DNA from: Verrucomicrobiia bacterium
GTDB lineage: Bacteria; Verrucomicrobiota; Verrucomicrobiia; Opitutales; Cerasicoccaceae
Reading direction: 5' to 3'
DNA length: 64,000 nt
Assembly (NCBI GenBank): GCA_030432235.1
Contig: JAUIHT010000007.1
Location: forward strand, 62,001 to 126,000
Part shown: one piece after another, positions 16,588-54,228 of the stretch
How positions within the stretch are numbered: the first letter of the stretch is position 1
Layout of the letters: each line of letters starts with the position of its first letter
Notes under the pieces: model-generated
Databases searched by the model: none
What the model was told of the DNA's origin: nothing
The model's input: the letters and a program-made list of their open reading frames with translations, nothing else
Translations under genes and position numbers: made by a program

Positions 16588-16627
16588 GTTTCCCGTCCAC
16601 CTAAAACCCCAAACCACCCCAGTTACC

Positions 16628-17335
16628 ATGTTCTTAAACATACCGACGAATTCCTCCTCTGCGGTGGCCCGCTCGTCTCGTGCTTTTTCCCTCATAGAGC
16701 TACTCGCCGTCATTGCGATACTATCCATTCTCGCCGCGATCATTTTTCCCATCATCTCACAAATGCGGCATAAGGCTAATACCACAACGACGTTATCCAA
16801 CCTGCGCCAAATTTACCTGGGCCTGGCAAACTATAATAATGAGCACGGAAATTTGCCACCGATGACTTCAACAGTTACCAACGGACCAAGCGGACAGGAG
16901 CCCTTTTGGAACCAACTGATCATCCCCTACCTCGTTCCTGGATTCTCTCCGCCGCCCGCGCCTGACAACCAACTCCCTGGAGTGTTTTACGATCCAAATG
17001 CCAGCGCTCACAACTATAGGCGCGGTGATTTTGGCGTTCTCTTCGACGCCACTCGTGGGCCTTTCCGGGGCATCGAAAAAGGTTCGCTCTCACTGACCCA
17101 GATCATAAATCCGGCGGATACTGTTCTGGTAGCGACTGCCGAGCAAAATGGTCCCGGAACACAGCAGATTGGCACCTTCTATTTTAACAACAATACCAAC
17201 CCCAGCCAGTCATTCCCGCGTATGGCTGAGGCTCATCAGGGCAAGGCTGTTGTCTGTTTTGCCGACGGTTCCATCCGTCAGACCAGCAAAGCCGACCTCT
17301 ACGTCACAGAAATCCTGCCTTTCCGCAACGACTAG
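16628..17335 (+). CDS. Type II secretion/type IV pilus-like pseudopilin with H-X9-DG motif
   Basis: 235 residues from the ATG at 16628, chosen over 16562 because the latter lies in the DUF386 gene. The N-terminal prepilin signal is RAFSLIELLAVIAILSILAA, with Ala instead of Gly before the cleavage site and the conserved Glu five residues after it. The C-terminal HQGKAVVCFADG fits H-X9-DG exactly, the signature of the very numerous pseudopilin-like proteins of Planctomycetes and Verrucomicrobiota. It would be processed by prepilin peptidase and sit in the envelope. It ends the + strand glycan operon, and its role there is unknown. Confidence 0.85.
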   Translation: MFLNIPTNSSSAVARSSRAFSLIELLAVIAILSILAAIIFPIISQMRHKANTTTTLSNLRQIYLGLANYNNEHGNLPPMTSTVTNGPSGQEPFWNQLIIPYLVPGFSPPPAPDNQLPGVFYDPNASAHNYRRGDFGVLFDATRGPFRGIEKGSLSLTQIINPADTVLVATAEQNGPGTQQIGTFYFNNNTNPSQSFPRMAEAHQGKAVVCFADGSIRQTSKADLYVTEILPFRND

Positions 17336-37524: not shown

Positions 37525-40500
37525 TTGAAGGCTAGGATTATCAACAAGCGCAATGCGAGCACCACAAGAGGCTTCGCTCTCATTACCGCGATTGCCCTGA
37601 TGGGGTTTATTGTATTGCTCCTTTCCGCACTAGTGACACTCGTCCAAATTGAGTTGGCGAGTATGTCGATCTCCAAGTCTCAAGCGGAGGCGGAGCAGAA
37701 CGCGCTTCTTGGCCTGCAAACCGCGCTTGGTCAACTGCAAGAGCTCAATGGGCACGACCAGCGGGTCACCGTCCGGGCCGACCTGTTCGATGACGCAAAA
37801 ACGATTGTACAGCCTTATTGGACGGGGGTCGTTTCCACCAACCAGCCACCGGCCGCCTGGAACACCACCATGACCATGGATGAAAAATTCGATGCCGTGA
37901 AGTGGCTGGTCAGCGGCAATGAGACACTGGAGCCGAGTGACTCCGACTATCACCAACCCGGTGAAAGCATCGCGAATCCGGCGCTCCTCGTTAGCGCACC
38001 GGATACCGGACCAGGGCCACTCGTCTCGGTTACTGCACCCCAGCAACCCGTACTCAAGGATGGCACAACCACCGGTTATTATGCCTACTGGATAGGCGAT
38101 GAGGGCATCAAAGCCAGATTTAACCTCGTCAATCCCTATGCGGATTCCGGCGCAACGGACGTTGAAAAGATACGTGCCTTTCAGACTGCCCAGCGTACCG
38201 GCATCGAAGCCATCGATGCGATGTCGAGCTACCCTGTCAATGGGGCCAACCTACCTTTGCTGACCTCCGTTTCTGATGCACGTCTACTTGTAGACGATAC
38301 AGTGAAAGACCGCTTTCACGATATCACGTTTTGGAGCAATGGAGTGCTTTCCAATGTACGTGATGGCGGCCTCAAGCGAGACCTCACTTCCGCCTTTGAG
38401 AACAGTACAGTCTACGACCTGGCCTTCCCAACCGACCAAAGCAAGGAGCTGTTGAACGAGAGCGGGCTGGTAGACCTCAGCGTTTCCGGTGCCACTGGCG
38501 GGCCCAATTGGGATAACCTCCGTGCGTATTACAATCTCAAGGACCAAGTAAACGCCGACGGCTCGGTTGACATGATCAAACCGAGTCCGGCAGCGCCCGA
38601 GGCAGTTGATGGCCCGCCGTACCGATTAACAAATGCACACAAAACAGCACCTCATACCAGAAACAGCCCCATCTATCCCGTCATATCACGCATCCAAATT
38701 GGCTTCGCCCTCGAAAGCTATCAGACAACCCTCGAGAGTGGTGAAACCGTCTATAAGCTTCGTCTGCACATCAAACCGGTGATCGGCCTCTATAATCCCT
38801 ACAATGTTAAAATTAACGCAGCGGATTATTACGTATCCTGGTTCTTACGTCCTTTCATAAGGATAACGATCTTTTCCAATTCTGAGGTTCAATTCTATTT
38901 ATCGGAAGTACTGCCGATTATAAACGAAGTAAATCAAGACTTAAAGATGTCCGCCAAAAATCTGGACTTTGAGCCCGGCGAGACGCGCTTACTTACGCTT
39001 TACGAACCACACGACCTTTATGAGTCGGACTCATGGGCCGAACTCAGCTCGAATGACTGGGCTGCCGATGGTTCCTTCTGGCTCGACTTTGAGGATGTCC
39101 ACGTGGCCACTCACGACGGAAAAGGAGGCGCCAAAAATCCTAAAGTCCCTGGTTGGGAGTATGTGGGCTTTACCACCAATGAGCAGGAACAATTGACCGC
39201 GACGGATGCCAATAGCAGTGTCAAGATAACCATCTTGTCTAACGACATGGGCACCTTCTCACTTCTTGTCGATAATCCAGCGTCGAAGTTGAATTACCTC
39301 CAGACAATCGAGCGGCCTTGGAAAGGCACTGCCGGCCAGAGTCCAGGTAACGCCAGTAAGAGCTTTATCATAGGCCAGCTCCAGGGAGCGCTGGATATTG
39401 TTAATTGGGTCTACTGGCTGAGAACCAGTAACGCCACCCAACCGCTACGTGCGTTGGTGGACACCAATATCCGTCCCATGGCCATCACAAAACTATTCGA
39501 TGGTTTCTACAATGACTATGGTTACCCACTGCCCAGCTTCATGGAGGCCCCGCAGACTGGCGACAGCAGTACATTGGCCGTCCAGAGCAGCTCGGATGTT
39601 GCCATCACCGGTGATCGCAACCAGGGGTTCTGGGGCGCAGGCGTATCAGCATCAAAGGGAGAAAACCATGTGACCCTCTTTGATGTGCCTCGTGAACCCT
39701 TGACCTCATTGGGAGCACTGCAGCATGCCCACCTGACCTATTTCGTTTCCGACACCACCTATCCCTTAGGCAACTCTTTTGCCAATCCACGCATCGCACG
39801 TGACCAACCACTGCATATCTATCCTGATATGGTCTACTGGCTCGGAGGACCTACCCATGATGTCCCGGTCGCCGACTTAAGCTACTTCATTAACCGAGTG
39901 ATTTGGGACGGCTATTTCTTCTCTAGCATCAAAGAATCGGTCACGGACACGGAAATCGAGCAAGCCATGGCGGGCACGGGTGAAGAACTCATGGCAAATC
40001 CCCGTATAAAGTTCTATCAACCCACTGAAGACACCCTGACAGCCACTCAATTCACCGCGCCATCTTCGTTGGAGGATTACGAAGCCCTGGGGAGCACACT
40101 GATGGTTGATGGTGCTTTTAACGTCAATTCCACCTCAGTCAACGCCTGGAAAGCACTTCTCAACAGCATGAGCGGACTGGAGGTCCCACGCTATACCCCA
40201 TCCTCACCTGGCAACGCGCAATTCGCAACCGAGAGCAACGCACTTTTCTCTCGCCTCTCCCACCCGTTCGCGGGCGGATTCGACTCCAACGAAGATTCCA
40301 CCAATGACGCATTCTGGACAGGCTACCGCCGTCTCGACAGCACACAGGTAGATGCCCTGGCCAGGGAAATTGTCCATCAGGTTAAATTGCGCGGCCCGTT
40401 TCTCTCCATGGCAGATTTCGTCAACCGCAAATTAAGCAATGACGATCTTGGCCTGAATGGCACTCTGCAAGCCGCCTTGGACCACCCGGATGTAAAAATC

Positions 40501-40920
40501 AACAGCAAGCTGAACACCGACCTCGATGGCGGCGAACTGGCAGCAGATACATTAGGAGAAGGTTTTTATCCGAACTTCCACGGCACCCAAGCCTCCGGTT
40601 TTACCGGCTACCTGATGCAAAGCGATATCCTGCAGGCGCTGGCTCCGGTCCTAAGCGTACGCTCGGATACCTTTGTTATTCGCTCATACGGCAGTTCGCT
40701 CGATCCACTCACCCAGCGGCCGGTTGCTAAGGCGTGGTGCGAAGCAATTGTGCAGCGCGTCCCCACTCCAGCATCCATGGATAGCGGGTTGAGCGACGAA
40801 CGGAACTTGTTTACCGGCGGGAATCTTTTCCCAGAGACCACCCCCACCAATGGCATGAGTCTCGGCAGCAGGTCTTATAAAGTGGTTGCATTTCGCTGGC
40901 TCAACGAAAGTGAATTATAA
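37525..40920 (+). CDS. Very large pseudopilin-like protein (Verru_Chthon cassette protein A-like)
   Basis: 1131 residues from a TTG start at 37525; no ATG lies close upstream in frame. The N-terminus RGFALITAIALMGFIVLLLS is a prepilin-type signal and helix, with cleavage expected between Gly and Phe. Position 5 after cleavage is Thr, not Glu, as in GspK/PilX-like minor pseudopilins. Next come heptad-like SISKSQAEAEQNALLGLQTALGQLQ and the motif TTGYYAYWIGDEGIKARFNL, which I associate with the Verru_Chthon cassette A family. The remaining 900 residues are unrecognised. By inference it is a tip or cargo-docking component of a type II secretion-like machine. The partner gene starts 9 bp after it. 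Confidence 0.65.
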   Translation: MKARIINKRNASTTRGFALITAIALMGFIVLLLSALVTLVQIELASMSISKSQAEAEQNALLGLQTALGQLQELNGHDQRVTVRADLFDDAKTIVQPYWTGVVSTNQPPAAWNTTMTMDEKFDAVKWLVSGNETLEPSDSDYHQPGESIANPALLVSAPDTGPGPLVSVTAPQQPVLKDGTTTGYYAYWIGDEGIKARFNLVNPYADSGATDVEKIRAFQTAQRTGIEAIDAMSSYPVNGANLPLLTSVSDARLLVDDTVKDRFHDITFWSNGVLSNVRDGGLKRDLTSAFENSTVYDLAFPTDQSKELLNESGLVDLSVSGATGGPNWDNLRAYYNLKDQVNADGSVDMIKPSPAAPEAVDGPPYRLTNAHKTAPHTRNSPIYPVISRIQIGFALESYQTTLESGETVYKLRLHIKPVIGLYNPYNVKINAADYYVSWFLRPFIRITIFSNSEVQFYLSEVLPIINEVNQDLKMSAKNLDFEPGETRLLTLYEPHDLYESDSWAELSSNDWAADGSFWLDFEDVHVATHDGKGGAKNPKVPGWEYVGFTTNEQEQLTATDANSSVKITILSNDMGTFSLLVDNPASKLNYLQTIERPWKGTAGQSPGNASKSFIIGQLQGALDIVNWVYWLRTSNATQPLRALVDTNIRPMAITKLFDGFYNDYGYPLPSFMEAPQTGDSSTLAVQSSSDVAITGDRNQGFWGAGVSASKGENHVTLFDVPREPLTSLGALQHAHLTYFVSDTTYPLGNSFANPRIARDQPLHIYPDMVYWLGGPTHDVPVADLSYFINRVIWDGYFFSSIKESVTDTEIEQAMAGTGEELMANPRIKFYQPTEDTLTATQFTAPSSLEDYEALGSTLMVDGAFNVNSTSVNAWKALLNSMSGLEVPRYTPSSPGNAQFATESNALFSRLSHPFAGGFDSNEDSTNDAFWTGYRRLDSTQVDALAREIVHQVKLRGPFLSMADFVNRKLSNDDLGLNGTLQAALDHPDVKINSKLNTDLDGGELAADTLGEGFYPNFHGTQASGFTGYLMQSDILQALAPVLSVRSDTFVIRSYGSSLDPLTQRPVAKAWCEAIVQRVPTPASMDSGLSDERNLFTGGNLFPETTPTNGMSLGSRSYKVVAFRWLNESEL

Positions 40921-40929
40921 ATCGTCGAA

Positions 40930-41685
40930 ATGGTGTTCCCCGTACGTATACCCAAACACAGAAGCATGACGGTAACCTTTCTCTGTCTGACTTGTCTGTT
41001 AGTGTGTTCTTTGGCCTTTGCGGAAACCAATGGCGAGATCACGAAAATAGCCTTTCGCGCCATTAGCTGGGACGAGAGTTTGCCGGAAGTACAGTACTTC
41101 GATGGCAGCAAGGTAGTCACCTTTTTCGTACCGAATGGAAGTCGCTCCGCTCTTCAGGATTATCAGGGTCCAAGACAGGTAGCATTCTATGATGAATTGA
41201 TTTGGGATGAAGACGGACAACCACTCCATCCACCCATTGCCATAGCAAACGTTCCTCCCGGGCTAAACTCCCCGCTCTTCATATTCATGACCAGCAATCA
41301 AGACAGGGGACGTCCCTATGAAGTGATGGTGATCGACGATGACGCCGACAAATTCCCCCGGGAGAGCTACCGGTTTTTTAATCTCACCTCCCGTAGGCTG
41401 GCATGCCTCTTCGGCCAGGAGCGCTTCATGCTTCTCCCGGGAGGCAGGGAAACGGTACCGGCCACTTTATCCGGAAAAAAGAGCATTGAGATAAAGTTAG
41501 CCAGAGAAGATGAAGAAGACCAGTGGGAGTTGGCCTACGCCTCGAAATGGGGAATCATGCCTGGCCGCCGTGCCTTGGCCTTTATCATGTCGCCACCAAA
41601 CGACCCGCGTGAGATAAGCACTCGGATATTTTTTGACTATCCGGAGCAGCCTCTGTCTTTCAACCCGGACAGCGCCAAGCCATAA
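40930..41685 (+). CDS. Exported hypothetical protein paired with the large pseudopilin
   Basis: 251 residues, not recognised. An N-terminal signal peptide (RSMTVTFLCLTCLLVCSLAFA; start could also be the ATG at 40966) is followed by a strand-rich body in two halves (about 35-130 and 135-235). The 9-bp gap to the Verru_Chthon A-like gene implies one operon. I recall similar small exported proteins beside Verru_Chthon A genes, but cannot name a family. It may be an envelope partner or stabiliser of the large protein. No lipobox or anchor is visible. Confidence 0.55.
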   Translation: MVFPVRIPKHRSMTVTFLCLTCLLVCSLAFAETNGEITKIAFRAISWDESLPEVQYFDGSKVVTFFVPNGSRSALQDYQGPRQVAFYDELIWDEDGQPLHPPIAIANVPPGLNSPLFIFMTSNQDRGRPYEVMVIDDDADKFPRESYRFFNLTSRRLACLFGQERFMLLPGGRETVPATLSGKKSIEIKLAREDEEDQWELAYASKWGIMPGRRALAFIMSPPNDPREISTRIFFDYPEQPLSFNPDSAKP

Positions 41686-42131: not shown

Positions 42132-43226
42132 CTAGCAATCATCAAACGAAACTGGCAATAGACAGGCTCCTCGGGAAAGATCCGTCCAAGCCACCCACTT
42201 GCCATCCAGACTGATCGCCGGATGCGGATGGTAGGGATGCTGGCTCCGGCGTGCAGTCGCCAGCAAGAGACTTTTCCGCTTTTTCAAGTCAAGCAGTACG
42301 ATATCCGACTCGATAGTTGTCTTGTCCATGTCTGCTTTTACGTGCTGGTCACGATACGTAATAAAGTCCGCTTCAGACATTTCGGCGTCCGCCCAGGGGC
42401 CTGACGTATCGATGACCGCAAACCTGCCGGTCCTGTCCATGTTACAATGCCAGACTACATCGCTTTCCCAGAGCAGGCATCCGGGTTTCCGATCAGCGTA
42501 TACCTCGTAGAGGCCACGCTTGCCTGCCGGGCTAACGGCATAGGCCACGGCATAGGCCGACAGTCCGTGGAAACACCATCGCTCATGACCTATACACAAC
42601 GGCTTGCCGTCCTGCTCCGAGTGCTGGTCGAACACCGGGATGCCTTGAGGTGCTTTTCCTGCATGCCATGCCCAGCAACGATCACTTACTTCCTCCGTGC
42701 GTCCTTCATGCGAAAAACCGACCCAAGCTTCGTCATAAGGGCAATAGTGAAAGTGATTGGCGAGCCACGATTGAGAAAAGAGCTGTCGGTGCTCACCCGT
42801 GCCGGTGTCGACTTCCACCGCGGCGTAGGAATCCGTTTGCGTCACCCCGCATACTATTCGTGAACCATCCGCTTTTATACTGACCAGCCCGTGGAGCTTA
42901 TTGGGAGGCGCTACTTCATAGAGGCATCTCCAGCCACTCGGCTTCACCAGGTTCAGTAGCCATACCTTGTTATCAAACGCCGCTGCCAGCAGCGGAGCTT
43001 CCAGCGCAACGTCAAACCAGAGCAAAGGTGGCGTCTGCCCCTGAAAAGGTATTTCTTCAATCGTGAAGATCTTACCCGTCCCCAGCTCGAGCCCTCGCAA
43101 TTCAATACACTGCGAACAAATTCGGGTATAAACAAGCAAACGCCCGCCATCGGCAAAGCCGTTGCAATGGGGGTATGTCGTATAGCTACCTTGCCCGAGT
43201 TCAAACGGTTGGCCGAGAACATCCAT
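42132..43226 (-). CDS. Oligogalacturonate-lyase-like beta-propeller protein (copy 3)
   Basis: 364 residues, no signal peptide. Propeller blades with short strands (WKCLYEV-type segments, GRFAVIDTSGPW) end in HPYHPHPAISLDGKWVAWTD, the lyase-like HPHP motif near residue 344. The residue three before HPH is His, where copy 2 has Gln and copy 1 has Arg, so the metal-ligand set may vary. It starts 44 bp after the PEP-CTERM gene and is the last gene of that operon, next to the left boundary of the putative island. Lyase activity is inferred from similarity in pattern only. Confidence 0.6.
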   Translation of the reverse strand: MDVLGQPFELGQGSYTTYPHCNGFADGGRLLVYTRICSQCIELRGLELGTGKIFTIEEIPFQGQTPPLLWFDVALEAPLLAAAFDNKVWLLNLVKPSGWRCLYEVAPPNKLHGLVSIKADGSRIVCGVTQTDSYAAVEVDTGTGEHRQLFSQSWLANHFHYCPYDEAWVGFSHEGRTEEVSDRCWAWHAGKAPQGIPVFDQHSEQDGKPLCIGHERWCFHGLSAYAVAYAVSPAGKRGLYEVYADRKPGCLLWESDVVWHCNMDRTGRFAVIDTSGPWADAEMSEADFITYRDQHVKADMDKTTIESDIVLLDLKKRKSLLLATARRSQHPYHPHPAISLDGKWVAWTDLSRGACLLPVSFDDC

Positions 43227-43270: not shown

Positions 43271-44002
43271 CTATCTGTTCCGGCGGTAGCGCTTGTAAGC
43301 AAGCCCAGCCAAAGCAAAGAGTCCCGTTAGTAACGCGGTGGTGCTGGGTTCGGGCACCTGCGTAAACGTGAGTGACGGTTTGAGCGCATCACTGGCTGTC
43401 GAACCGAGTAAGTTGTAACCGCGAGGCGCACTGGCAAAGGTGATGGTCGGGTTCAAGCGGAAATAGACAAACTGGCCAATACCGGCTCCCCCGTCATACT
43501 GCGCGTTCAGGTAGTCGACCACGGTAGAAGACGAGGTGTCGATCGCGGTGTTGGCAGTATAGCCCGCGTTCGCTTGAAGGAAGCTCGAGACGAGCTTGGT
43601 AGCGTCGAGAGATGTGTCGTTTGCCCCGAAATAGCCCATGCTCGAAGCAGGCGCTGCCGAGGCCGCAGCAGCGATACCGTAAAGGTCGATTTCAACCGTC
43701 CCTTGCTGGAATGCGTAGCTGGAGAATCCAACGCTGAAAGTCGCACTGGCAAAGGGATCAGATACCGCGCCCAGATCTGGCAGTTCAAAGGAGAATACTG
43801 CGTTGGTGAACTGAAAGGGATCCGCAGCAGCACTGCCTACCCGAGGGGAATTATCCTCATAGGTACTGGAGTAAGAAGCCGGCGTATTGCTGGCATCTGA
43901 GTAGTTCAGTTGATTACCGGTTCCATAAATCGTAGTGCCAAAGGCAAATGATGCACACGAGGCAGAAGCGATAATGACGATAGATAGAGGTATTTTTTTC
44001 AT
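43271..44002 (-). CDS. PEP-CTERM surface protein (canonical VPEPS motif)
   Basis: 243 residues from the ATG at 44002, giving the signal peptide MKKIPLSIVIIASASCASFAFG. The body is Ala/Ser/Thr-rich and strand-forming (FSFELPDLGAVSDPFASATF, FVYFRLNPTITFASAP). The C-terminus carries a canonical sorting signal: VPEPSTTALLTGLFALAGLAY followed in the last seven residues by basic KRYRRNR-type sequence. It is first in an operon with propeller copy 3. Two CTTTA-N3-TAAAG palindromes lie in its upstream region, shared with the divergent dehydrogenase gene, so it is probably part of the LacI regulon. Confidence 0.85.
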   Translation of the reverse strand: MKKIPLSIVIIASASCASFAFGTTIYGTGNQLNYSDASNTPASYSSTYEDNSPRVGSAAADPFQFTNAVFSFELPDLGAVSDPFASATFSVGFSSYAFQQGTVEIDLYGIAAAASAAPASSMGYFGANDTSLDATKLVSSFLQANAGYTANTAIDTSSSTVVDYLNAQYDGGAGIGQFVYFRLNPTITFASAPRGYNLLGSTASDALKPSLTFTQVPEPSTTALLTGLFALAGLAYKRYRRNR

Positions 44003-44051
44003 AAGTAATAGCTTTTCTAAGATTTCCTTCATCTTGTCAAAAAACCAGTAG

Positions 44052-44064: not shown

Positions 44065-44126
44065 TTAAAAGAGCACCTCCCGCATATGATAAGACGGTCG
44101 AGGATGCTACCCTCCTCTCCCCGGCT

Positions 44127-44139
44127 CTTTACAATAAAG
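44127..44139. promoter_or_regulatory. Putative LacI operator 2 (CTTTACAATAAAG)
   Basis: Identical, including the centre, to the site at 46538-46550. It lies 57 bp before the ATG of the Gfo/Idh/MocA gene, in position to block its promoter. Confidence 0.7.
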
Positions 44140-44196
44140 TGGCGAAACCCTTGTCGTTACATCTCCCCAAGGCCTGAATTTTCAGCCTTTATCAGT

Positions 44197-45387
44197 ATGG
44201 ATAATCCCATTCGAGTTGCTCAGATAGGAGCAGGCGGTTTCGGCTATCGTCATTTTGACTGCCTTACGGCCCCATGCGGTCGTCAATTCTTCGACTTTTG
44301 CGCGGCGGCCGATCCCGTCTTTGCCAGCGACCACAGCTTGAGACGGAAATATGAAAAAGCCGGCTACCGCTATTACGAAGATTTCAAGGCGATGCTCGTA
44401 AATGAGCCCTCACTGGAGGCAGTCACCATCGTCGCACCCATACACCTGCATGAAGATATATTACGCGAATGCCTGCGTCATGACTTGTATATTTATTTGG
44501 AAAAGCCTCCGGTGCCCCGCATTGAACAACTGAACAATCTCCTGATGCTTAATAACCAGGAAAAAGTCGCCGTCGGCTTTCAATGGATTGCTTCGCATCC
44601 GCTACAACAGGCAAAACGTTGGGTACTTGAGGGCAGACTCGGTCGTTTGGAATCCTTACGAGCCTTGGCTGCATGGCCACGAAAGGACGATTATTACCAG
44701 CGCAATGATTGGGCCGGAAAGATGGAGTATGATGGAGCCCCGGTATTTGATGGTCCCGCCACAAACGCCCTCGCCCACTTGGTTCATAACATCATGTTTC
44801 TGGGAGGCGATAAGCTAAATAGCTTTACGGAACCATCCTCTTGCGAAGGGGAATATTATCGAGTACGTCCGGAAATAGACAGTTACGATTTGGCCGTGCT
44901 GCGTGGTACTCTCGAAACCGGGCCGTCTTATCATGCGGTTCTGACTCACGCCTGTGAAGAAACGATACCTTTCTTCGTCGAGATGACCGGCACACGGGGA
45001 TGGATCCGCATTGGGAGCGATGGCTGTTCCCTGGAAAGCTCATGGGGCGAGCATCACTTCTATGCCAACGAGGTGGATGACTCCTATCATTTGAATTTTT
45101 CCGATTTCGCCTTGTTCTCCCGAGGACTGAAGCAGCATCCACATACTCGGCTGCTCGATTCCAAGGGCTACTTAAAAGCAGTTTGTGGGGGCCTCAGTGC
45201 CTCCGGTGGCATCCATACCGTATCAACCAAGTGGACCGAAAAGCTGAAAGACGGCAGCTATATCATTCAGGACGGAGCTGACTACTTCATCAGGGCCTCA
45301 AAGGAGCGTAAGCTTTTATCGGAATTGGGATGGCTCGGGATGGAAGAGGAGAATACCTGCACATCAACCATCAGCCTTGGCGATTAG
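44197..45387 (+). CDS. Gfo/Idh/MocA family oxidoreductase
   Basis: 396 residues from the ATG at 44197; the longer reading from 44086 would include operator 2 and is unlikely. The N-terminus is a Rossmann fold (IRVAQIGAGGFGYRHFDCL), followed by EAVTIVAPIHLHEDIL and YIYLEKPPVPRIEQLNNLL with the catalytic EKP. WPRKDDYYQRNDWAGKM and APVFDGPATNALAHLVHNIM lie in the sheet domain. It is cytoplasmic and probably oxidises a sugar of the cassette. It is divergent from the PEP-CTERM operon and converges on the LacI gene with a 17-bp 3' overlap. Confidence 0.85.
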   Translation: MDNPIRVAQIGAGGFGYRHFDCLTAPCGRQFFDFCAAADPVFASDHSLRRKYEKAGYRYYEDFKAMLVNEPSLEAVTIVAPIHLHEDILRECLRHDLYIYLEKPPVPRIEQLNNLLMLNNQEKVAVGFQWIASHPLQQAKRWVLEGRLGRLESLRALAAWPRKDDYYQRNDWAGKMEYDGAPVFDGPATNALAHLVHNIMFLGGDKLNSFTEPSSCEGEYYRVRPEIDSYDLAVLRGTLETGPSYHAVLTHACEETIPFFVEMTGTRGWIRIGSDGCSLESSWGEHHFYANEVDDSYHLNFSDFALFSRGLKQHPHTRLLDSKGYLKAVCGGLSASGGIHTVSTKWTEKLKDGSYIIQDGADYFIRASKERKLLSELGWLGMEEENTCTSTISLGD

Positions 45388-46459
45388 CCATCGCCTGGAT
45401 GTTGCCCGAAACGGGCTCCTGCGGTATCGTACGGGTTGTCTTCCCTTGGACATAACTGCCCTGCACTTTCAGAATAGTTGGCACGTCGGGAATGCCTCGC
45501 TCATTAATTCGCATGAGCGACAGAATCATGTCGACGGAGGAAATACCCACCTTTTTTGAGTTCTGATCAATGCCGGTGATATCCTGCATTTTATCAGTCA
45601 AATCAACATTGGCCAATCCTACGTCTACAGGCGTCTTGAGCCCCATTTGCTTAAGCCAGTCGCCAACCTCCAAGCCGACGGTAACGATAACCTCCGGCCG
45701 CTGGCGTTCATACCAGCGCTCAAAGGTAGTGAGTGTCCATTGCTTGGACAATAGCATCGGCAAAGTCTTTATCGACTTGGCGATGCTGCATCCCGCCAGG
45801 TAGCCAGCCCTCCAGTTATGGTTCGCCCGCTCATCCTGACCCGCATGCATGGCGAGTCCGATTCTGCGATATCCCGCCTCAGCCAACTTTTCCATAAGAA
45901 GCATTATGCTATGGAACTGGTGATTGCTCGCGCGATGAAGCTCCGGACTCAGCAGGGAATACCCCAGTTCGACACAGGAAAAATAGTTCCATTGGAACTT
46001 CTGGTAATTATGTGCCGCTTCTGGAAGCGGCGACACCAGCACTCCATCGATTCCACGATTGCGAATAATGTCGCTGAGTCGCTGTTCTGTCATTTTGGCC
46101 TCGGTCAAACGAAACTCTTCAAGGCGGTAACCATACATGTCCGCGCGCTCGCGCGCACCCTCGTAGTACATCCGGTGTGTGTATTCCTTGTTCCACCCGT
46201 TCTGCTCTTTGTATGCGGTCAAATAAGCAATGATGTTCCCTTTGCCATGCTCCTTTTTATCCCGTATTTTCTCCATGAGCTTGGCGATGTCGGGATCGGG
46301 GCGATAGCCCATTTCCTCCGCCAGCGCCTGTATACGCTGACAAGTGCTAGCTGGCAAACTGGTGTGATTGCGCAATGCCAACGATACGGTCATGCGTGAG
46401 ACTTGGGCAGCCTCCGCAATATCTTTAAGAGTAATCGTCGAACTTTTTTTCCTGGGCAT
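45371..46459 (-). CDS. LacI family transcriptional regulator
   Basis: 362 residues from the ATG at 46459; a start at 46483 adds eight residues. The N-terminal HTH and hinge are typical (TLKDIAEAAQVSRMTVSLAL, STCQRIQALAEEMGYRPDPD). The sensor domain follows, with RNRGIDGVLVSPLPEAA, YRRIGLAMHAGQDERANHNW, RPEVIVTVGLEVGDWLKQMG and DVGLANVDLTDKMQDITGIDQN, the last matching the usual effector/dimer region. It is divergent from the pseudopilin gene with 157 bp between. The palindrome CTTTA-N3-TAAAG in this region and at two further sites is the likely operator, giving autoregulation and control of the whole cassette. Confidence 0.95.
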   Translation of the reverse strand: MPRKKSSTITLKDIAEAAQVSRMTVSLALRNHTSLPASTCQRIQALAEEMGYRPDPDIAKLMEKIRDKKEHGKGNIIAYLTAYKEQNGWNKEYTHRMYYEGARERADMYGYRLEEFRLTEAKMTEQRLSDIIRNRGIDGVLVSPLPEAAHNYQKFQWNYFSCVELGYSLLSPELHRASNHQFHSIMLLMEKLAEAGYRRIGLAMHAGQDERANHNWRAGYLAGCSIAKSIKTLPMLLSKQWTLTTFERWYERQRPEVIVTVGLEVGDWLKQMGLKTPVDVGLANVDLTDKMQDITGIDQNSKKVGISSVDMILSLMRINERGIPDVPTILKVQGSYVQGKTTRTIPQEPVSGNIQAMANRQG

Positions 46460-46537
46460 GGGCGTCACAAACTTATGTACCACTTCTTAAAACCGGCACT
46501 AAAAAGAAGTCTAGTTGGCGCCACAACCCGGTCAAGG

Positions 46538-46616: not shown

Positions 46617-47309
46617 ATGCCCCCCAACCAACCAAATGCTTCAAAAGTCAGGAAGCTCCATGGGTTCACGATTACGGAACTCTTGGTGGCCATAAGTATT
46701 ATTGCCATTCTTAGCGTACTTCTGATCGCTACCATCGGAAAAGCCAGAAGTAAGATGGACCAAACAAAATGCGCCTCGAACCTGCGGCAATTGGGCATGG
46801 CATTCCACATGTATGCGTCCGAGAACGATAATATTTTATTAGCTACAGGCAACAACGACGTGAGTATAATAACAGGAAGCTCCTGGTCTATAATGCTGAT
46901 GCGCTATATGGATTTTAAATTTCCAGCCAAAAACCAGGAAAGCCTTTTTCTTTGTCCATCGGCGCTTGATACCTACCCAAACGGAATTGCCACGCGCACC
47001 TATGCCATGAATTGGCAGAACCTACCCACAGAAGGTTCCGACGTTCACCCTACCCGCGGTTGGGAGCAAAAGACACTCCTCTCCTGGCACAGCAATCCCA
47101 CTGAAACGGCACTGCTGATTGACAGCAGGGGCAATGTTAATCAAGCCGGAGATGGCGCCGCGCGCTACACCACCAGCAATTTCGACAGCTTCGCCGATTG
47201 GCGCCATTCCAATGGACTCAATGTGCTGTTTCTCGACGGTCATGTCTCTTGGATGGGACGCGATGAATCAGACAAAATAAAGGAATACACCAATAACTTT
47301 GCCCGTTAA
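46617..47309 (+). CDS. Type II secretion/type IV pilus-like pseudopilin with H-X9-DG motif
   Basis: 230 residues. A 16-residue leader precedes the prepilin signal HGFTITELLVAISIIAILSV, with Gly before the cleavage site and Glu at position 5 of the mature protein. NLRQLGMAFHMYASENDN and, near the end, HSNGLNVLFLDG give the conserved H-X9-DG signature. The gene heads a + strand operon of carbohydrate genes inside the LacI cassette. Its role there is unknown; it may help place the exported glycosidase and binding proteins. The next gene starts 2 bp after its stop. Confidence 0.9.
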   Translation: MPPNQPNASKVRKLHGFTITELLVAISIIAILSVLLIATIGKARSKMDQTKCASNLRQLGMAFHMYASENDNILLATGNNDVSIITGSSWSIMLMRYMDFKFPAKNQESLFLCPSALDTYPNGIATRTYAMNWQNLPTEGSDVHPTRGWEQKTLLSWHSNPTETALLIDSRGNVNQAGDGAARYTTSNFDSFADWRHSNGLNVLFLDGHVSWMGRDESDKIKEYTNNFAR

Positions 47310-47311
47310 TA

Positions 47312-47863
47312 ATGAAGAGAATAATATCATCGCTAAAGTGCTTCGCCGACTGGCGTAAGACCGCCTTCGTTGCGCTGTTCTCGCTGGCAAGCACGCTCAT
47401 GGCAGACCAAGTCAATCTGCTGGAGTCCGGCTCGGAATCCTGGACCCAAGGCTGGAAAGCCGGTTATGGCTGTAGCCTCTCCCTTGCCCCGGTCGGCTCG
47501 GAGATGGTATTGAGGCAGACGCTTCCAGACGACTTTTCAAAGGGAAACCACTCCTGGCAAATGCGAGTCCCCGTTACCCCCGGAGATGCCTATAGTTTCC
47601 ACGTTCTCTATCAATTACAAGATGTGGACAGTGCCATGGTGCAGTTCCATTTCGCTGACCAGAAGGGGAAGCTAATGGATTATCTGAAGTTTCGTCTGTC
47701 GACTGAAGTGCTGAAAGGCAGCACGCAAGACTGGAAAACTTTGAACTACAATTTTGAGGCCCCTGAAGGAGCCGCCTATGTACTGGTCGCGCTCAGGCTC
47801 AACTCGCCCGGGACCGTCTATTGGGATAAGCCCACGCTGCAAGTGGTGGATAAATCCAACTAA
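47312..47863 (+). CDS. Stand-alone exported carbohydrate-binding module-like protein
   Basis: 183 residues: a signal peptide with a long basic N-region, then a single jelly-roll domain (about 30-180). It closely matches the N-terminal domain of the next gene: WTQGWKAGYGCS versus WTSGWTAGYGCS, GNHSW in both, AMVQFHF in both, and LRLNSPGTVYW versus LRLDSPGTIYW. The fold pattern is that of CBM4/9-like modules. It starts 2 bp after the pseudopilin stop and ends 6 bp before the glycosidase start. It probably binds the same glycan as the enzyme; a direct role as a surface glycan-binding protein is inferred. Confidence 0.7.
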   Translation: MKRIISSLKCFADWRKTAFVALFSLASTLMADQVNLLESGSESWTQGWKAGYGCSLSLAPVGSEMVLRQTLPDDFSKGNHSWQMRVPVTPGDAYSFHVLYQLQDVDSAMVQFHFADQKGKLMDYLKFRLSTEVLKGSTQDWKTLNYNFEAPEGAAYVLVALRLNSPGTVYWDKPTLQVVDKSN

Positions 47864-47869
47864 AGGACC

Positions 47870-50239
47870 ATGGTAAAACCACTTTTTAGAACACTCACAG
47901 CCGCCATCCTCGCCGTTGTGAGTTCGATTACCGCACAGGCCAATCTACTGACATCCCCTGCGGACTCCGACTGGACCTCTGGTTGGACCGCCGGTTACGG
48001 ATGCAGCACCACTCGCGATTCGGCTGGTGAGCGCGTTCTCAGACAGACTTTGCCTGAGAGCTTCACCTCGGGAAACCACTCCTGGCATCGCCGACTCAAT
48101 GCTCAAGCGGGGGCAAGCTATCGCTTTTCCGCCCAGTACAAACTGGAAGATGTGAAAAAGGCTATGGTGCAGTTTCACTTCGTCTATCCTGACGGAAAGT
48201 TTATGACCTATCAGGATTTCCGGTTCTCCACCCCACTCCTATCTGGAACGGAAGATTCGTGGCAGGAACTTGTATATGAGTACCAGGTGCCTCAGGGAGC
48301 GGCAGCTGTGGAGCTCGCCTTACGCCTGGACTCCCCGGGCACCATTTACTGGAAAGATGTGCGCCTGATAAAAACCTCATCATCACCAAGTCTCAGTTTC
48401 GAAGAGGATGTACAATCGTATGACTTGCGCGATTCAGTGGGTATTGTCGTACGCGAGCTTCCGGTGGATAAACTTCTTCCCCTCAACGCCAAATGGATGC
48501 GTTACAATATCAACTGGGCATCGGTCGAAAAGGACGGCCCCGGCCAATGGAATCAGGAATACCTGGATAAAGTCGAAGCGGACATTGCCGCAGCCAAAGC
48601 CGCCGGCATCCACGTCATGGTCTCTCTGGGCTATCCCCCACGTTGGGCAGCCCGTAAAAACGAGGGTGTTCGTGGTGGTTTTGTCGTGGCCAAAGAACCG
48701 GTTGCGTTTGGCAAATACGTAGCTGTAGTGGCCGGGCGGCTGAACCACCTGGTCGACTGCTACCGCATCATGAACGAGGTCAACCATCAGTGGGACAACG
48801 GCTCCCAACCCCAGGAATACACCATCTTTCTCAAGGAAGCCTATCAGACAATCAAGGCCATCGACCCCGATGCCACCGTCCTGATGGCGGGCGTATCGGG
48901 AACACCAGGCGGCTACCTCAATGCCATATTCCAAGCCGGTGGCGGTGCCTACTTCGATGTCGCGGCCTGCCAACCCTACATGCACGGGCGCGCCACCCCG
49001 GAAGAAGGCCGCTTGGCGGATCGCCTACGAGCCTATCGCATGGTCCTGGCCGAAAACGGTTCCAACAAACCCATTTGGGCAACCGAGTACGGCTATCCCT
49101 CCGAGCCACTCGACCGCATCACGCCGGAGCAGCAGGCCGCCATGAGCGTCCGCTCGCAATTGCTGGCCATCAGCAGTGGAGCCGGAGTCACCAAGTTCTT
49201 TTTCTTCCTCCTGCGCGATCAAGTGGGAGACACGATCAGCCAAACGGGCGGTCTCTACACTCGCGATTGGGAACTCAAACCCTTGGGCCAGGCCATCCAA
49301 ACGCTCGCGAAAGTCATCAACCCGGTGCGACGCTACGTCGGCGAAGTCGACCTCGGCGATGATCCAACCCTCTATAATCGATTGTTCGAGGTAGAACCGG
49401 GAGAATACGTCTGGGCCTTGTGGCAAACCGAAGGTGAAACGGAACTGTCACTGAACTTCCCACAGCCCGTCGAAAAAGTCAGTTGGGAAGGCAAGACCAG
49501 CACACCAAGCCAGAGCCATTCTATTACGTTGGGAGAGCTGCCCGTTTATTTTACCGGAGATATGCGGGATATGGCGGCCCAGGCCACCAAGGAAAAGCGT
49601 ATCGGTTACCACTCCATTGACCAAATTACCAAGAACTCTCAAATCATTCCGTGGTCCACCACAATGACAGCCTGGGACGAAGTTCCGGTCATGGAATTGA
49701 AAGCCAAGCGTGATGTCAGCAACAAGACGATTGCCAAAGCGCAGGTCACCGCCTCAACACAAGGATTGTGGTGCAAAGTGGATATCGAGGACAGCTCGCC
49801 AGCGCTCAACACGACAGAAGGCTTTGCCGCAATCTGGAGGCAAGACTCCGTAGAAGTTTTCTTAAATTACACCCCGGAAAATGCGCCGGCGGGCTTCGTC
49901 ACGGATGACTGTTACCACTACATCGTTAGCCCGGGAGTCCACGGCACAGGCGCTCGCGCTTACTGGGCCAGCCAAGGCAGTCGTTCCATGCAGCAAATCG
50001 TTAAGGGTTCGAATCCAAAGGTAACTGTCTGGCCGGACAAATCCGGATATACCATCAGCTTTTTCGTGCCTTGGAAGGATGGCATCGCACCCAAGCCGGG
50101 AGAAAGCATCGGTTTTGATATACTGGCCACACGCTCAAACGCCAACGGGGAACGGGAGGAAACCGCCGTTTGGTCTGGCAGCCTGGACAACTCGACGGAT
50201 GCTTCCCTCTGGGGTGTTCTGAACTTTGCCAGCCTGTAG
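47870..50239 (+). CDS. Exported modular glycoside hydrolase: CBM, clan GH-A barrel, CBM9-like
   Basis: 789 residues. A signal peptide (MVKPLFRTLTAAILAVVSSI) is followed by a CBM4/9-like domain (about 25-165) and a clan GH-A barrel (about 180-545). The barrel has KWMRYNINWASVEKDGPG at its start, IMNEVNHQW near residue 301 (Asn-Glu acid/base) and IWATEYGYPSEP near 405 (nucleophile Glu). The C-terminus (about 590-789) resembles a CBM9/DOMON-type module with DSVEVFLNYTP. The barrel looks closest to GH39/GH5-like enzymes; the family is not certain. The first domain is duplicated as the separate upstream gene. It should act on extracellular polymer. Confidence 0.75.
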   Translation: MVKPLFRTLTAAILAVVSSITAQANLLTSPADSDWTSGWTAGYGCSTTRDSAGERVLRQTLPESFTSGNHSWHRRLNAQAGASYRFSAQYKLEDVKKAMVQFHFVYPDGKFMTYQDFRFSTPLLSGTEDSWQELVYEYQVPQGAAAVELALRLDSPGTIYWKDVRLIKTSSSPSLSFEEDVQSYDLRDSVGIVVRELPVDKLLPLNAKWMRYNINWASVEKDGPGQWNQEYLDKVEADIAAAKAAGIHVMVSLGYPPRWAARKNEGVRGGFVVAKEPVAFGKYVAVVAGRLNHLVDCYRIMNEVNHQWDNGSQPQEYTIFLKEAYQTIKAIDPDATVLMAGVSGTPGGYLNAIFQAGGGAYFDVAACQPYMHGRATPEEGRLADRLRAYRMVLAENGSNKPIWATEYGYPSEPLDRITPEQQAAMSVRSQLLAISSGAGVTKFFFFLLRDQVGDTISQTGGLYTRDWELKPLGQAIQTLAKVINPVRRYVGEVDLGDDPTLYNRLFEVEPGEYVWALWQTEGETELSLNFPQPVEKVSWEGKTSTPSQSHSITLGELPVYFTGDMRDMAAQATKEKRIGYHSIDQITKNSQIIPWSTTMTAWDEVPVMELKAKRDVSNKTIAKAQVTASTQGLWCKVDIEDSSPALNTTEGFAAIWRQDSVEVFLNYTPENAPAGFVTDDCYHYIVSPGVHGTGARAYWASQGSRSMQQIVKGSNPKVTVWPDKSGYTISFFVPWKDGIAPKPGESIGFDILATRSNANGEREETAVWSGSLDNSTDASLWGVLNFASL

Positions 50240-50297
50240 AAACCACGGCTGGCACAGGATACCACGTACGCTTAGCAGAGGAACCAACCTTGCGGTC

Positions 50298-52718
50298 ATG
50301 AAAAACCTGACTTTGGAAGTTTCCCTCAAGCCATTCTACGGCCTCGACGCATCTGCACTGCTTACGGTTTGCGAGCAGGCCTTGGGTCAATGGCGTGCAC
50401 TTATCGAGCGTACCGACACGGTATCCATCCTTTTCTGGGCGGCGGATGGCTCGGAAATACTGGATTACAACGGCGATCTCGATCAGGAGATGGAATGGGC
50501 GCGCTACATCGGAAATGCCAATGCCCATATTCATCCGCACATTCCAAGCGATCCAGAAAACAGGAGTCTGCATGCGAGGTCGTACCTTTATCGTGAAGAC
50601 GCCCAGCCAATTACCTACCGGCGCTTTGCTCAAATCATTCAGACTTGGCGCAAGGCAATTACAGCCCTTGGCAAAGCTGTCCGCATTGGGCTGACCTTCG
50701 ACCCCGGTGGTGAGTTCTCGCCTTCTTCCTTCAAGTACGAGCGCCACCGCGAGATTTGCCTGGCCAACACCATGGGCAAGGCAAGCTTTGCCTGCTGTTA
50801 TGGTGTGCTGCACGCGGATGATCGCGCTTACGCGGGCTTTCCCGGCGGCATTCCGGAGGGCACCAGTATGGGTACATTTCTGGGGCGGCAGTTCCAGAGC
50901 CTGGCCAAAGACCTGCGCGCAGACTATCTTTGGCTCTCCAATGGTTTTGGGTTCGGCATGGAAACCTGGATGACGGTCGGGCCCCTCTTTGACGGTAAAC
51001 ACTTCCACCCCGAAAACGCGTCCACTGTGCGTGATGAAATCCTGAGCTTCTGGCGCGACTTTCGGCGGGAATGCCCCACCCTGGCCATCGAAACACGTGG
51101 GACCAACCTTGGCACTGGAACCGACCTCGCCAGCGATGCGACTCCGTTGCGCGAACTCTACGAGGGCGACTTCAACTTCGCACCGCCCCCGAACTCTCCC
51201 TGGGCCGCGATCAATGGCGACTTCGGCCTCGAAATGACCGGCTATCTCAGTCGCATAGCCGAGTTGCCCCCGGGTCGGCCCTTGCCCTTCCGTTTCTATA
51301 TTCACGACCCCTGGTGGTTAAACAGCCCCTGGCTGGACCGTTACGAACGTCAGGCACACGATATCTACCTGCCACTGGCGACGGCCCGCCTCAGCAGCGA
51401 AGGCCTACTCGAAACGGCCGATACACTCAATCTGCTGACCATCGACGACTCTTATGGACAAATGCCGGAAGCGGTCCCGAACGAAGTGATCCCACACCTG
51501 CTGCGTGCCTGGGATGAGCAACCGGATGCAGCCGGGCCCTTTGTTTGGCTTTACCCCTTCGATGAACTGCACGAGGCCATGTTCTCGTCGCCACAACGAC
51601 CGGAACGCCTCTTTCATGTCGATTGGTTCATGCGCGAAGCGATCAACCATGGATTCCCATTGAACACGGTTCTTAGCACACGCACTTTGCAGAGCCTGGT
51701 TCAGAAAAAATCCGACGCGCTTCGGGGTCGCATTCTCGTTTCTCCCGCTCCCTTCGATGCCGCGGCCGAAGCACTGCTGCTATCCTGGATCGACTCCGGT
51801 GAGAAGGTGATTGTTTATGGTCCGCTCGGGCAGGCACCTGAAATGTGCGAACGACTCGGCCTCATCCAGGATACTCCCCTGAGTGGACAAATGGAAATAC
51901 AAGGTGACGCGACTTTACCGGATCGGATCGAGGACGACGAGGCGTCGCTCACTTATGAACACCGCCCTTTGATGTCCGGTGGCGGCCTGGAGGAAACACC
52001 ACAACATGGTTGCGAGTCGCCACTCCGTGCCCAACAGGGAGAAAACACTCGCGCACTGATTGCGAAACATACCACCCCATCCGGCGGATGCCTATGCTGG
52101 CTGCGCGGCCCCTTGCCCCTGAAGATCGAGAAGGATTGCCATCTGCCCGTTCCAGACGTTGCAGGCTCCTCGTTTCCAGTAGGCAAACTCATACGGAAAG
52201 TCATCACCCAGTGGGGCTGGCATATCGGCTTCCACGCGAACGACTCTCGGCAAAAGCAGCCCGTGCTTGCCTTGCATCGTCATGACAACGCCTGGCTTTT
52301 CTCCGGCTACACTCCGGACACAACCGTCGGCTTCTCCCTGAAAACACCTTGGGGCGCTCCCATCCTGCTCGGCCAGGAAACCCGCCTCCAGAACGGCTCC
52401 GCCTGCTTCCATCAGCAACGCGGCTGGCGTAATGAATGCCGTGTATTTGTGGACCAATCGGAAGGACTCATCAGCCACCGCGAAGAGCTTCCCGGCCAGA
52501 TGGGAGTGACGCGCAGGATGTGGGTCCACGGCTTGTGCGAAGCGACACTGCGCTTCTTCCCTCCCATCGGATTCGACGACCGCGTAACGGCGAGGGACAA
52601 CCCGGAATGGCCTTTCATCAGTGGAAAGCAAATCAGACTGAAGCGCGTCGACACGCCCCATGGCACCTTGCTGGAGACCCTTGATCCGACCAACGGAACT
52701 ATCCTCCTTTCCTGGTAA
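50298..52718 (+). CDS. Large hypothetical protein, probably carbohydrate-active
   Basis: 806 residues from the ATG at 50298; the reading from 50226 would overlap the previous gene. No signal peptide. The first 480 residues look like an alpha/beta barrel: FDPGGEFSPSSFKYERHREI, DYLWLSNGFGFGMETWMTVG, EILSFWRDFRRECPTLAIETRGTN-type segments, INGDFGLEMTGYLSRI and PFRFYIHDPWW. Residues about 490-560 resemble a class-I-amidotransferase-like domain (LLSWIDSGEKVIVYGPL), as seen in some beta-galactosidases, and the rest is beta-rich. I recognise no GH family. It lies in the middle of the cassette, so a cytoplasmic glycosidase is a fair guess. Confidence 0.5.
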   Translation: MKNLTLEVSLKPFYGLDASALLTVCEQALGQWRALIERTDTVSILFWAADGSEILDYNGDLDQEMEWARYIGNANAHIHPHIPSDPENRSLHARSYLYREDAQPITYRRFAQIIQTWRKAITALGKAVRIGLTFDPGGEFSPSSFKYERHREICLANTMGKASFACCYGVLHADDRAYAGFPGGIPEGTSMGTFLGRQFQSLAKDLRADYLWLSNGFGFGMETWMTVGPLFDGKHFHPENASTVRDEILSFWRDFRRECPTLAIETRGTNLGTGTDLASDATPLRELYEGDFNFAPPPNSPWAAINGDFGLEMTGYLSRIAELPPGRPLPFRFYIHDPWWLNSPWLDRYERQAHDIYLPLATARLSSEGLLETADTLNLLTIDDSYGQMPEAVPNEVIPHLLRAWDEQPDAAGPFVWLYPFDELHEAMFSSPQRPERLFHVDWFMREAINHGFPLNTVLSTRTLQSLVQKKSDALRGRILVSPAPFDAAAEALLLSWIDSGEKVIVYGPLGQAPEMCERLGLIQDTPLSGQMEIQGDATLPDRIEDDEASLTYEHRPLMSGGGLEETPQHGCESPLRAQQGENTRALIAKHTTPSGGCLCWLRGPLPLKIEKDCHLPVPDVAGSSFPVGKLIRKVITQWGWHIGFHANDSRQKQPVLALHRHDNAWLFSGYTPDTTVGFSLKTPWGAPILLGQETRLQNGSACFHQQRGWRNECRVFVDQSEGLISHREELPGQMGVTRRMWVHGLCEATLRFFPPIGFDDRVTARDNPEWPFISGKQIRLKRVDTPHGTLLETLDPTNGTILLSW

Positions 52719-52737
52719 TATCAACACCGACTATTTA

Positions 52738-54228
52738 ATGAAAACGCGCACTCCACCACCCACTATTGAACGACGTCGCAAACTGACCGCGAAGGCAGGC
52801 CTGCTCGGAATCGGCCACCATGTTTACTGGCCGCAATTCGATGGCCTGCTGGACGAGATGCACCGTAAGCTGGGCCTGGCCAAAACGATGATTGCCGCTC
52901 ATGGTGTCGAAGTCGCCGAATTCGGATTGATCGACAACGCCCAGAAGGCCTACGACAGCATTCCCGCTATCAAGGCCGCCGACATCGACATCCTGTTTGT
53001 CGACATGGTAACCTACGGAACATCGTCGACCTTTGGCATTCTCTGTCGGGAAATCAACGTACCCATTGTACTGCTCGCCATCCAGCCTCTGAAGGCGATG
53101 GACTACCCCAACGGCACCACCTTCATGCAGCTCTGCAACGACGACTTTTGCTCCGTGCCGGAGTTTACGGGGGTCGCCGTGCGTTTTGGCCGCAAGCCTC
53201 CGCCGGTAATCCTGGGACACGAGGGCGACGACCCCACGGTGGCACGGGAACTCAAGGCCTGGTGCGGTATCGCCAAAGCACTGCACTCATTGCGCAAAAG
53301 CCGTATTGGCCTGATGGGGCATGTCCTCGAGTCCATGCTCGATATGCATACGGACCCAACCGCAATCACTGCAGCCTTTGGTCCGCATATTGTTCTGATA
53401 GAGGCAAACGACGTCTATCGCCACTACCGGGAACCAAACCCAAATGCAGTCGAAACCTGGAAGCAGAATATTCTGTCGTTTTTCGATACTCCCGATCCCA
53501 AGTCCGACCCCATCACAGAGAAACTCACGGACGCAGACCTCGATAAAGCCGCCCGTGCCGGTGTGGCGCTGGACGGCCTCATCGCGGACAAAAACCTCGA
53601 CGGATTTGCCTACTACTACGAGGCGGAGGAAGGTTCCGATTTACGCACGCTGGTCACGAACTTCATCGTTCCCAATTCCCTGCTGACCGGCGCCGGGTTC
53701 CCCATGTGCGGAGAGTTCGATTTAAAAACCTGCATCGCCATGATGATTATGGACCGTCTCGACATCGGCGGCAGCTTCGCCGAATTCCACCCGGTGGATT
53801 TCGCACGCGACAGCGTGCTGGTTGGCCACGACGGCCCACATCATATCAACATCGCCGCTGAAAAGCCCGTCATCCGAAGCCTCAAGAAGTATCATGGCAA
53901 ACCCGGTTCGGGCGCGGGCGTCGAGTTCCGCATCAAAGAAGGCCCCATAACCATGCTTAGCATCGGCCAGACCGCCGAAGGGAAGTTCAAGTTTGTCATC
54001 GCCGAAGGCGAGTCCGCCGACCGTCCGATCCCACCGACCGGCAACACGAACACCCATGGTATTTTCCAGCCCGATGTGCGCACCTTCCTCAAGCGCTGGG
54101 TCGCCGAAGGCCCCACACACCACTTCGCACTCGGTATCGGCCATCATGCCGCCGAGCTGGTCGAGCTCGCTAAAATCCTGGACCTGGACTATGCAGTGGT
54201 TACCCCTTGGCAATCAGCCCCCCTGTAA
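52738..54228 (+). CDS. L-arabinose/L-fucose isomerase-like aldose isomerase
   Basis: 496 residues from the ATG at 52738, the usual AraA length; the start at 52660 lies in the previous gene. Residues matching the family's Mn site and general base are seen in order: Glu in YYYEAEEGSDLRT (about 296), Glu in CGEFDLKT (about 324), His in FHPVDFARD (about 351) and His in LGIGHHAAEL (about 468). IDILFVDMVTYGTSS and RKSRIGLMGHVLESMLDMH fit the N-terminal sugar-isomerase domains. It should convert an aldose to a ketose in the cytoplasm. Substrate (arabinose, fucose or another) is not decidable. Confidence 0.8.
   Translation: MKTRTPPPTIERRRKLTAKAGLLGIGHHVYWPQFDGLLDEMHRKLGLAKTMIAAHGVEVAEFGLIDNAQKAYDSIPAIKAADIDILFVDMVTYGTSSTFGILCREINVPIVLLAIQPLKAMDYPNGTTFMQLCNDDFCSVPEFTGVAVRFGRKPPPVILGHEGDDPTVARELKAWCGIAKALHSLRKSRIGLMGHVLESMLDMHTDPTAITAAFGPHIVLIEANDVYRHYREPNPNAVETWKQNILSFFDTPDPKSDPITEKLTDADLDKAARAGVALDGLIADKNLDGFAYYYEAEEGSDLRTLVTNFIVPNSLLTGAGFPMCGEFDLKTCIAMMIMDRLDIGGSFAEFHPVDFARDSVLVGHDGPHHINIAAEKPVIRSLKKYHGKPGSGAGVEFRIKEGPITMLSIGQTAEGKFKFVIAEGESADRPIPPTGNTNTHGIFQPDVRTFLKRWVAEGPTHHFALGIGHHAAELVELAKILDLDYAVVTPWQSAPL

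Follow-up and report, generated by a model that had tools for sequence, protein, structure and literature searches.

Why a bacterium should encode what looks like one sugar-binding domain twice in succession, as a free protein and then as the first domain of a glycosidase, was asked of a locus in contig JAUIHT010000007.1 of a Verrucomicrobiia bacterium (Opitutales; Cerasicoccaceae), of which a stretch of 64,000 nucleotides, here called the window, was analyzed. The gene for the free protein starts 2 bases past the stop of a prepilin-like gene, and its own stop is separated from the start of the enzyme gene on the same strand by six bases (47864-47869), a gap that an earlier note on this DNA had also given. 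In BLASTP, 78 of 157 residues (50%) of the free protein and the enzyme N-terminus were identical (E 8e-49), a similarity far beyond chance. The four motifs that the note quoted as shared were all found in both copies, and both N-termini resemble Sec signal peptides when judged by eye, again in line with the note. The proposed tandem duplication into a free and a fused copy is supported by this identity over 157 residues and, in a tree, no other module was as close to either of the two adjacent homologues as they were to each other. Besides the two copies, the search of the bacterium's own genome at E up to 1 returned two weak matches (E 0.14 and 0.46). Features of the locus and of comparable loci are collected in Table 1.

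Table 1. Positions of the twin genes, their domains and neighbors in the window (numbered from its first base), and of comparable loci elsewhere.
Feature	Position	Strand	Remarks
Protein weakly like oligogalacturonate lyase	42132..43226	-	PF14583 20 bits, cut-off 30; 61% identity in G008
PEP-CTERM-like protein	43271..44032	-	PF07589 18.3 bits, cut-off 20.7; 59% identity over 202 aa in G008
Gfo/Idh/MocA oxidoreductase	44086..45387	+	59% identity in G008
LacI-family regulator, divergent	45371..46483	-	71% identical orthologue in G008
Prepilin-like protein, 230 aa, first gene of apparent operon	46617..47309	+	N-methylation motif, H-X9-DG C-terminus; 60% identity in G008
Stand-alone CBM-like protein, 183 aa	47312..47863	+	Apparent signal peptide ~1-31 (by eye), jelly-roll ~33-180
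Enzyme, 789 aa	47870..50239	+	CBM-like domain, GH-A-like catalytic module, CBM9-type domain
Homologous N-terminal CBM-like domain of enzyme, residues 25-168	47942..48373	+	Sequence homology
Catalytic module of enzyme, residues 201-525	48470..49444	+	Aligned with PslG
Putative catalytic E303, E406	48776-48778, 49085-49087	+	PslG alignment; role by general GH-A knowledge
CBM9_1 domain (PF06452) of enzyme, residues 600-785	49667..50224	+	51 bits, cut-off 23.4
Second free and fused CBM_4_9-type pair, right-handed beta-helix protein	L090:7941-11492 and L093:6910-10388
Split versus fused heparinase-like locus	L074:5789-8439 versus L017:6967-9651

The nature of the duplicated domain was judged from profiles and from a predicted structure. 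The free protein of the window gave a single chance-level match in NCBIfam, no match was obtained in a plasmid collection, and a CBM_4_9 (PF02018) search of the own genome (E up to 0.01) picked up neither window copy. When the corresponding proteins of Verrucomicrobiota bacterium JB024 (G008; same family, other genus) were examined with those of the window, three of the four twins, free and fused, matched CBM_4_9 weakly (best E 2.6e-4). The free protein, when modeled with AlphaFold2 (mean pLDDT 82.8, means of the five models 59.1-82.8, residues 1-3 and 6-31 at pLDDT under 50) took the form of a jelly-roll. In VIA-align this model reached Z 15.9 with a hyaluronan-binding module (4d0q), 14.2 with a porphyran-binding module (8xmz), and 14.1, 13.2 and 12.6, over 132-141 residues, with chains of CBM16 (2zey), CBM4 (2y64) and CBM22 (4xuo), respectively; phage tail proteins, insecticidal toxins and meprins were also among its fold matches. 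The twins thus share with CBM_4_9 and CBM4/16/22 modules their fold, size, N-terminal placement in a hydrolase and weak profile matches, and differ in that the CBM_4_9 scores shown lie below the curated cut-off of 25.9 bits (21.9 bits for the G008 free copy) and that, even at E up to 10, no Pfam family was matched by the window free protein. The earlier note could name no CBM family with certainty; the model and profiles point to a jelly-roll that can be placed, distantly and under the Pfam threshold, with the CBM_4_9 and CBM4/16/22 group. The fold fits a carbohydrate-binding module without proving binding, and carbohydrate binding is a prediction only. Aromatic and histidine columns were invariant across the four twins in 17 of 21 cases, against 40 of the 119 other columns, a conservation that may largely reflect the fold core.

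The enzyme carries a CBM9 domain that scored well over its curated cut-off and a middle part that matched the GH5 Cellulase profile weakly (PF00150, 25.9 bits, cut-off 23.5). By sequence, its nearest solved structures were PslG (5bx9, E 8.6e-11) and 5jvk (E 8.5e-8), the latter of which we take to be a GH39 enzyme; at E up to 1, Pfam GH39 (PF01229) was absent among the enzyme's hits. When the catalytic module was aligned with PslG by means of a two-row profile, 325 profile columns were covered and the NE and TE motifs came to lie in register. NEVN (E303) and TEYG (E406), both kept in G008, fall on NEPN and TEWG of PslG, which puts a glutamate after asparagine and a second glutamate at the places expected for clan GH-A; from general knowledge of that clan, these residues are presumably the acid/base and the nucleophile. 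On this alignment the enzyme resembles clan GH-A hydrolases, PslG most closely. It differs from PslG and GH39-type hydrolases in its low overall similarity and in its additional CBM-like and CBM9 domains, and, the whole-enzyme model from the two-row alignment having a pLDDT of 36, the GH-A likeness rests on sequence similarity to PslG and GH5. Distant relatives of the catalytic module were found in three of 384 genomes of the class besides the own genome (E up to 1e-20), and in none of the three was an N-terminal CBM of this type seen by eye, so that the fusion of CBM and enzyme looks lineage-specific.

The twin genes close a block of seven that recurs in G008 in identical order and orientation at 58-71% identity: PF14583-like protein, PEP-CTERM-like protein, Gfo/Idh/MocA oxidoreductase, LacI regulator, prepilin, free CBM and the CBM-GH-CBM9 enzyme. 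A search of other genomes for the same pair, proposed in the earlier note as a check, found it in G008. Beyond the block the two loci part: none of the 13 G008 proteins in the comparison was matched at E 1e-3 by the three window genes downstream. Assignment of a substrate was considered and rejected, because the PF14583-like neighbor scores below its cut-off and because the sulfatase-like genes that lie, as judged by eye, next to the block in G008 are not mirrored in any of the 10 window proteins scanned. Directly after the glycosidase, the window encodes an 830-aa protein (50226-52718) for which neither Pfam nor NCBIfam gave a match at E up to 1 and which was likewise unmatched in those 13 G008 proteins. 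A further protein (52660-54228) is isomerase-like; it matched the C-terminal domains of L-fucose and L-arabinose isomerases over cut-off and the full-length L-arabinose and sulfoquinovose isomerase models far below cut-off.

The age of the duplication was estimated from the four twins of the two genera. Between window and G008, the free copies were 59% identical and the fused copies 66%, while free and fused copies were 49-54% identical to each other; third codon positions were identical at 36-45% in all six comparisons (39% for the free copies) and are near saturation. Ten site patterns placed the duplication before the split of the genera and one after it, with none for cross pairing. Together with rejection of a tree in which the window copies were held together (AU p 1.6e-4), this rules out a recent duplication, and the duplication is old and predates the split of the genera; the tandem origin proposed in the note stands with that correction of its age. 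The split between free and fused copies of the window type had a support of only 73/60 in a tree of 14 rows and 87/77 in one of 13 rows. That the free gene is the remnant of a broken full-length enzyme was also considered and is unsupported, given that it is intact in two genera and six bases from the enzyme gene. Its intactness in two genera at this identity, with third positions near saturation, suggests that the free copy has probably been kept by selection.

The lower identity between free and fused copies than between orthologues would fit a divergence of ligands, the free copy taking the released oligosaccharides or a different stretch of the polymer as its ligand, which would make the twins complementary; as the quoted motifs are shared and most aromatic residues agree between the copies, we think such a division of labor rather unlikely. 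The reading preferred here is that free and fused modules serve one process, and it is carried by further loci as well as by this one.

The exact pair of the window type looks rare, since few matches were obtained in samples of the family, class and phylum and a single locus in a scan of contigs. The A1 profile gave strong matches in two of ten family genomes (G000 and G008) and weak ones in G002 (best E 4e-6). Among 384 genomes of the class, three further genomes had weak matches (E 7e-8 to 7e-7), and among 387 of the phylum two were matched (E 4e-13 and 7e-10). These last two (G633 and G513) carry distant modules in proteins of ~1,200 aa, with a GH123 domain recognized by Pfam for G513 only. 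The class and phylum samples were drawn from larger groups and neither lists G008, which was probably not drawn. A pattern-based scan of genome contigs returned one locus only, that of JB024 (JAUTCS010000069.1).

A free and fused arrangement of another type came to light in a search for CBM_4_9 across the ten family genomes. Of the 47 matches, 15 lay in open frames no longer than 260 aa, and all 15 neighborhoods were read. Two genomes that share one other genus, G003 and G005, each have a free copy (203 and 190 aa, respectively) directly before a right-handed beta-helix protein (962 and 967 aa; Beta_helix over cut-off), which carries a homologous module at its N-terminus and is probably also an enzyme. 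Taking the longest open reading frames, the gaps between the genes are 51 and 2 bases; free and fused modules are 50% identical in G003 (E 3e-52) and 36% in G005 (E 6e-32). The G005 free copy exceeded the CBM_4_9 cut-off, and the other three modules of these two genomes lay below it. None of the four matched the window copies at E 0.01; the closest link to the window type was with the fused module of G008, at 25% identity (E 0.002). In the 14-row tree, the eight twin modules fell on one side of a branch (99/99), and grouping all four free copies, as by one ancestral duplication behind both pair types, was rejected (AU p 5e-64; 0% of 200 bootstrap trees), so that the free and fused arrangement arose at least twice. 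The 14 rows were picked by hand, with groups chosen after the BLAST table had been seen, and leave out the free copies of L079, L101 and L097 and the modules of G633, G513, G307 and G353; the 13-row tree includes those four modules and L079, whose branch is very long. The order within the G003/G005 type was not settled by the 14-row tree. A free copy that is merely a redundant duplicate with no role of its own, a reading to which only the homology itself lends support, seems very improbable beside its intact state in two genera, its near-saturated third positions and this second appearance of a free and fused pair.

Modules were found both split from and fused to an enzyme at a further locus. 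Here the own genome has two genes, one for a free CBM_4_9 protein of 203 aa and one, whose start it overlaps, for a heparinase-like protein of 680 aa (Pfam below cut-off), whereas in G002 the module and the heparinase-like part form one protein of 894 aa; the enzyme parts are 40% identical over 638 aa and the module parts 37% over 189 aa. This case supports the view that free and fused copies work in one process. Another free CBM_4_9-like protein of the own genome overlaps a GH106-type gene, a free module of G002 has a heparinase II/III-like gene directly behind it, and one of G001 overlaps a GH5 gene. Altogether, 7 of the 15 short CBM_4_9 open frames of the ten family genomes lay within 51 bases of an enzyme or presumed enzyme gene on the same strand and the other eight had no adjoining enzyme gene in the stretch read; the association is thus common and not general. 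CBM_4_9 was matched in 149 of 372 genomes of the order and, outside the family, at least four CBM_4_9 open frames of 260 aa or less (G297, G083, G214 and G881) were present among the matches listed.

In both genera the free gene comes straight after a prepilin gene, which raises a different explanation: the free copy might act in structure or assembly, with a partner such as the enzyme or the pseudopilin, its jelly-roll serving protein contact or surface display. Similar jelly-rolls in phage tail proteins and meprins would agree with this, as would a 1300-aa protein with a pilin-like N-terminus (by eye) encoded two genes upstream of the pair in G005. Within three open reading frames on either side of the G003 and G005 pairs, however, no ordinary short prepilin gene was flagged, and the free copy and enzyme module have stayed ~50% identical with most aromatic residues conserved; such a role seems rather unlikely on these grounds.

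One hint of a link between pseudopilins and polysaccharide use comes from the same order. In Verruconatronum alginivorum (Opitutales), whose two alginate gene clusters were over-expressed on alginate, a pseudopilin is one of three genes outside these clusters that were over-expressed too, in data with one proteome replicate per treatment, and an alginate cluster includes a PulG-like pseudopilin with 67 homologues in that genome (PMC13274419). This cluster resembles the window locus as an Opitutales polysaccharide cluster with a pseudopilin gene and differs in encoding alginate lyases, with no free and fused CBM pair mentioned in the available part of the report; that part also places the alginate genes of the one studied strain outside any canonical polysaccharide utilization locus (PMC13274419).

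Two prepilin-like genes of the H-X9-DG kind occur in the window, the one upstream of the twins and another at 16562-17335. At least 16 such matches were counted in the own genome, where 150 of 172 candidates were scored; they recur in carbohydrate loci, although one (C39) looks antisense and spurious. Four of the 16 have one of 59 LacI-type matches no more than 2 kb away, where ~0.7 would be expected by simple arithmetic, and most of the other 12 appear by eye to be near other regulators, PEP-CTERM-like proteins, hydrolases or sulfatases. At three loci (window 37525-41685, L074:2-3210 and L093:2222-6844) a recurring pair was seen by eye, made up of a protein of ~850-1300 aa, with a pilin-like N-terminus where complete, and an apparently secreted protein of 229-251 aa; the pair resembles what we take to be the Verru_Chthon cassette. 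As a long shot, the pairing of free and fused modules might be, within this family of Verrucomicrobiota, a repeatedly evolved device in which the free copy sits on, or is handed to, a locus-specific pseudopilus encoded upstream, making substrate-specific capture fibers that feed the matching enzyme.

The reading in which free and fused modules serve one process is favored because of the operon-like layout, the retention of both twins and the second origin. On this reading, a secreted CBM4/16/22-like sugar-binding domain would have been duplicated in tandem long ago; one copy would now stand alone as a protein of one domain, and the other would form the N-terminus of a GH-A-like glycosidase with CBM9. 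Both twins would most likely be expressed from one LacI-controlled operon with the pseudopilin gene, be exported, and have the same polysaccharide, or closely related ones, as ligand. The fused copy would target the enzyme in cis, and the free copy would act in trans by concentrating or loosening the substrate or by holding products. That both modules bind the polysaccharide of the enzyme, one in trans and one in cis, is given a little better than an even chance, and the putative "capture and cleave" role suggested in the earlier note is plausible.

Stand-alone CBMs and CBM-bearing enzymes are both already known. Secreted or surface CBM-only proteins occur in the polysaccharide loci of marine degraders, and surface glycan-binding proteins are found in Bacteroidota. 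Like these, the free twin is a non-catalytic putative binder encoded beside an enzyme; it differs in having no lipobox that could be seen by eye and in its close homology to the module of the enzyme itself. Among the open-licence papers listed in literature searches, none was found to describe a free twin that evolved repeatedly beside a fused copy, although absence is not thereby proved. Should the twins share a ligand, they would provide a natural test of a free against an attached binding module, with an independent replicate at another locus, and a handle on how Verrucomicrobiota organize the secreted breakdown of polysaccharides.
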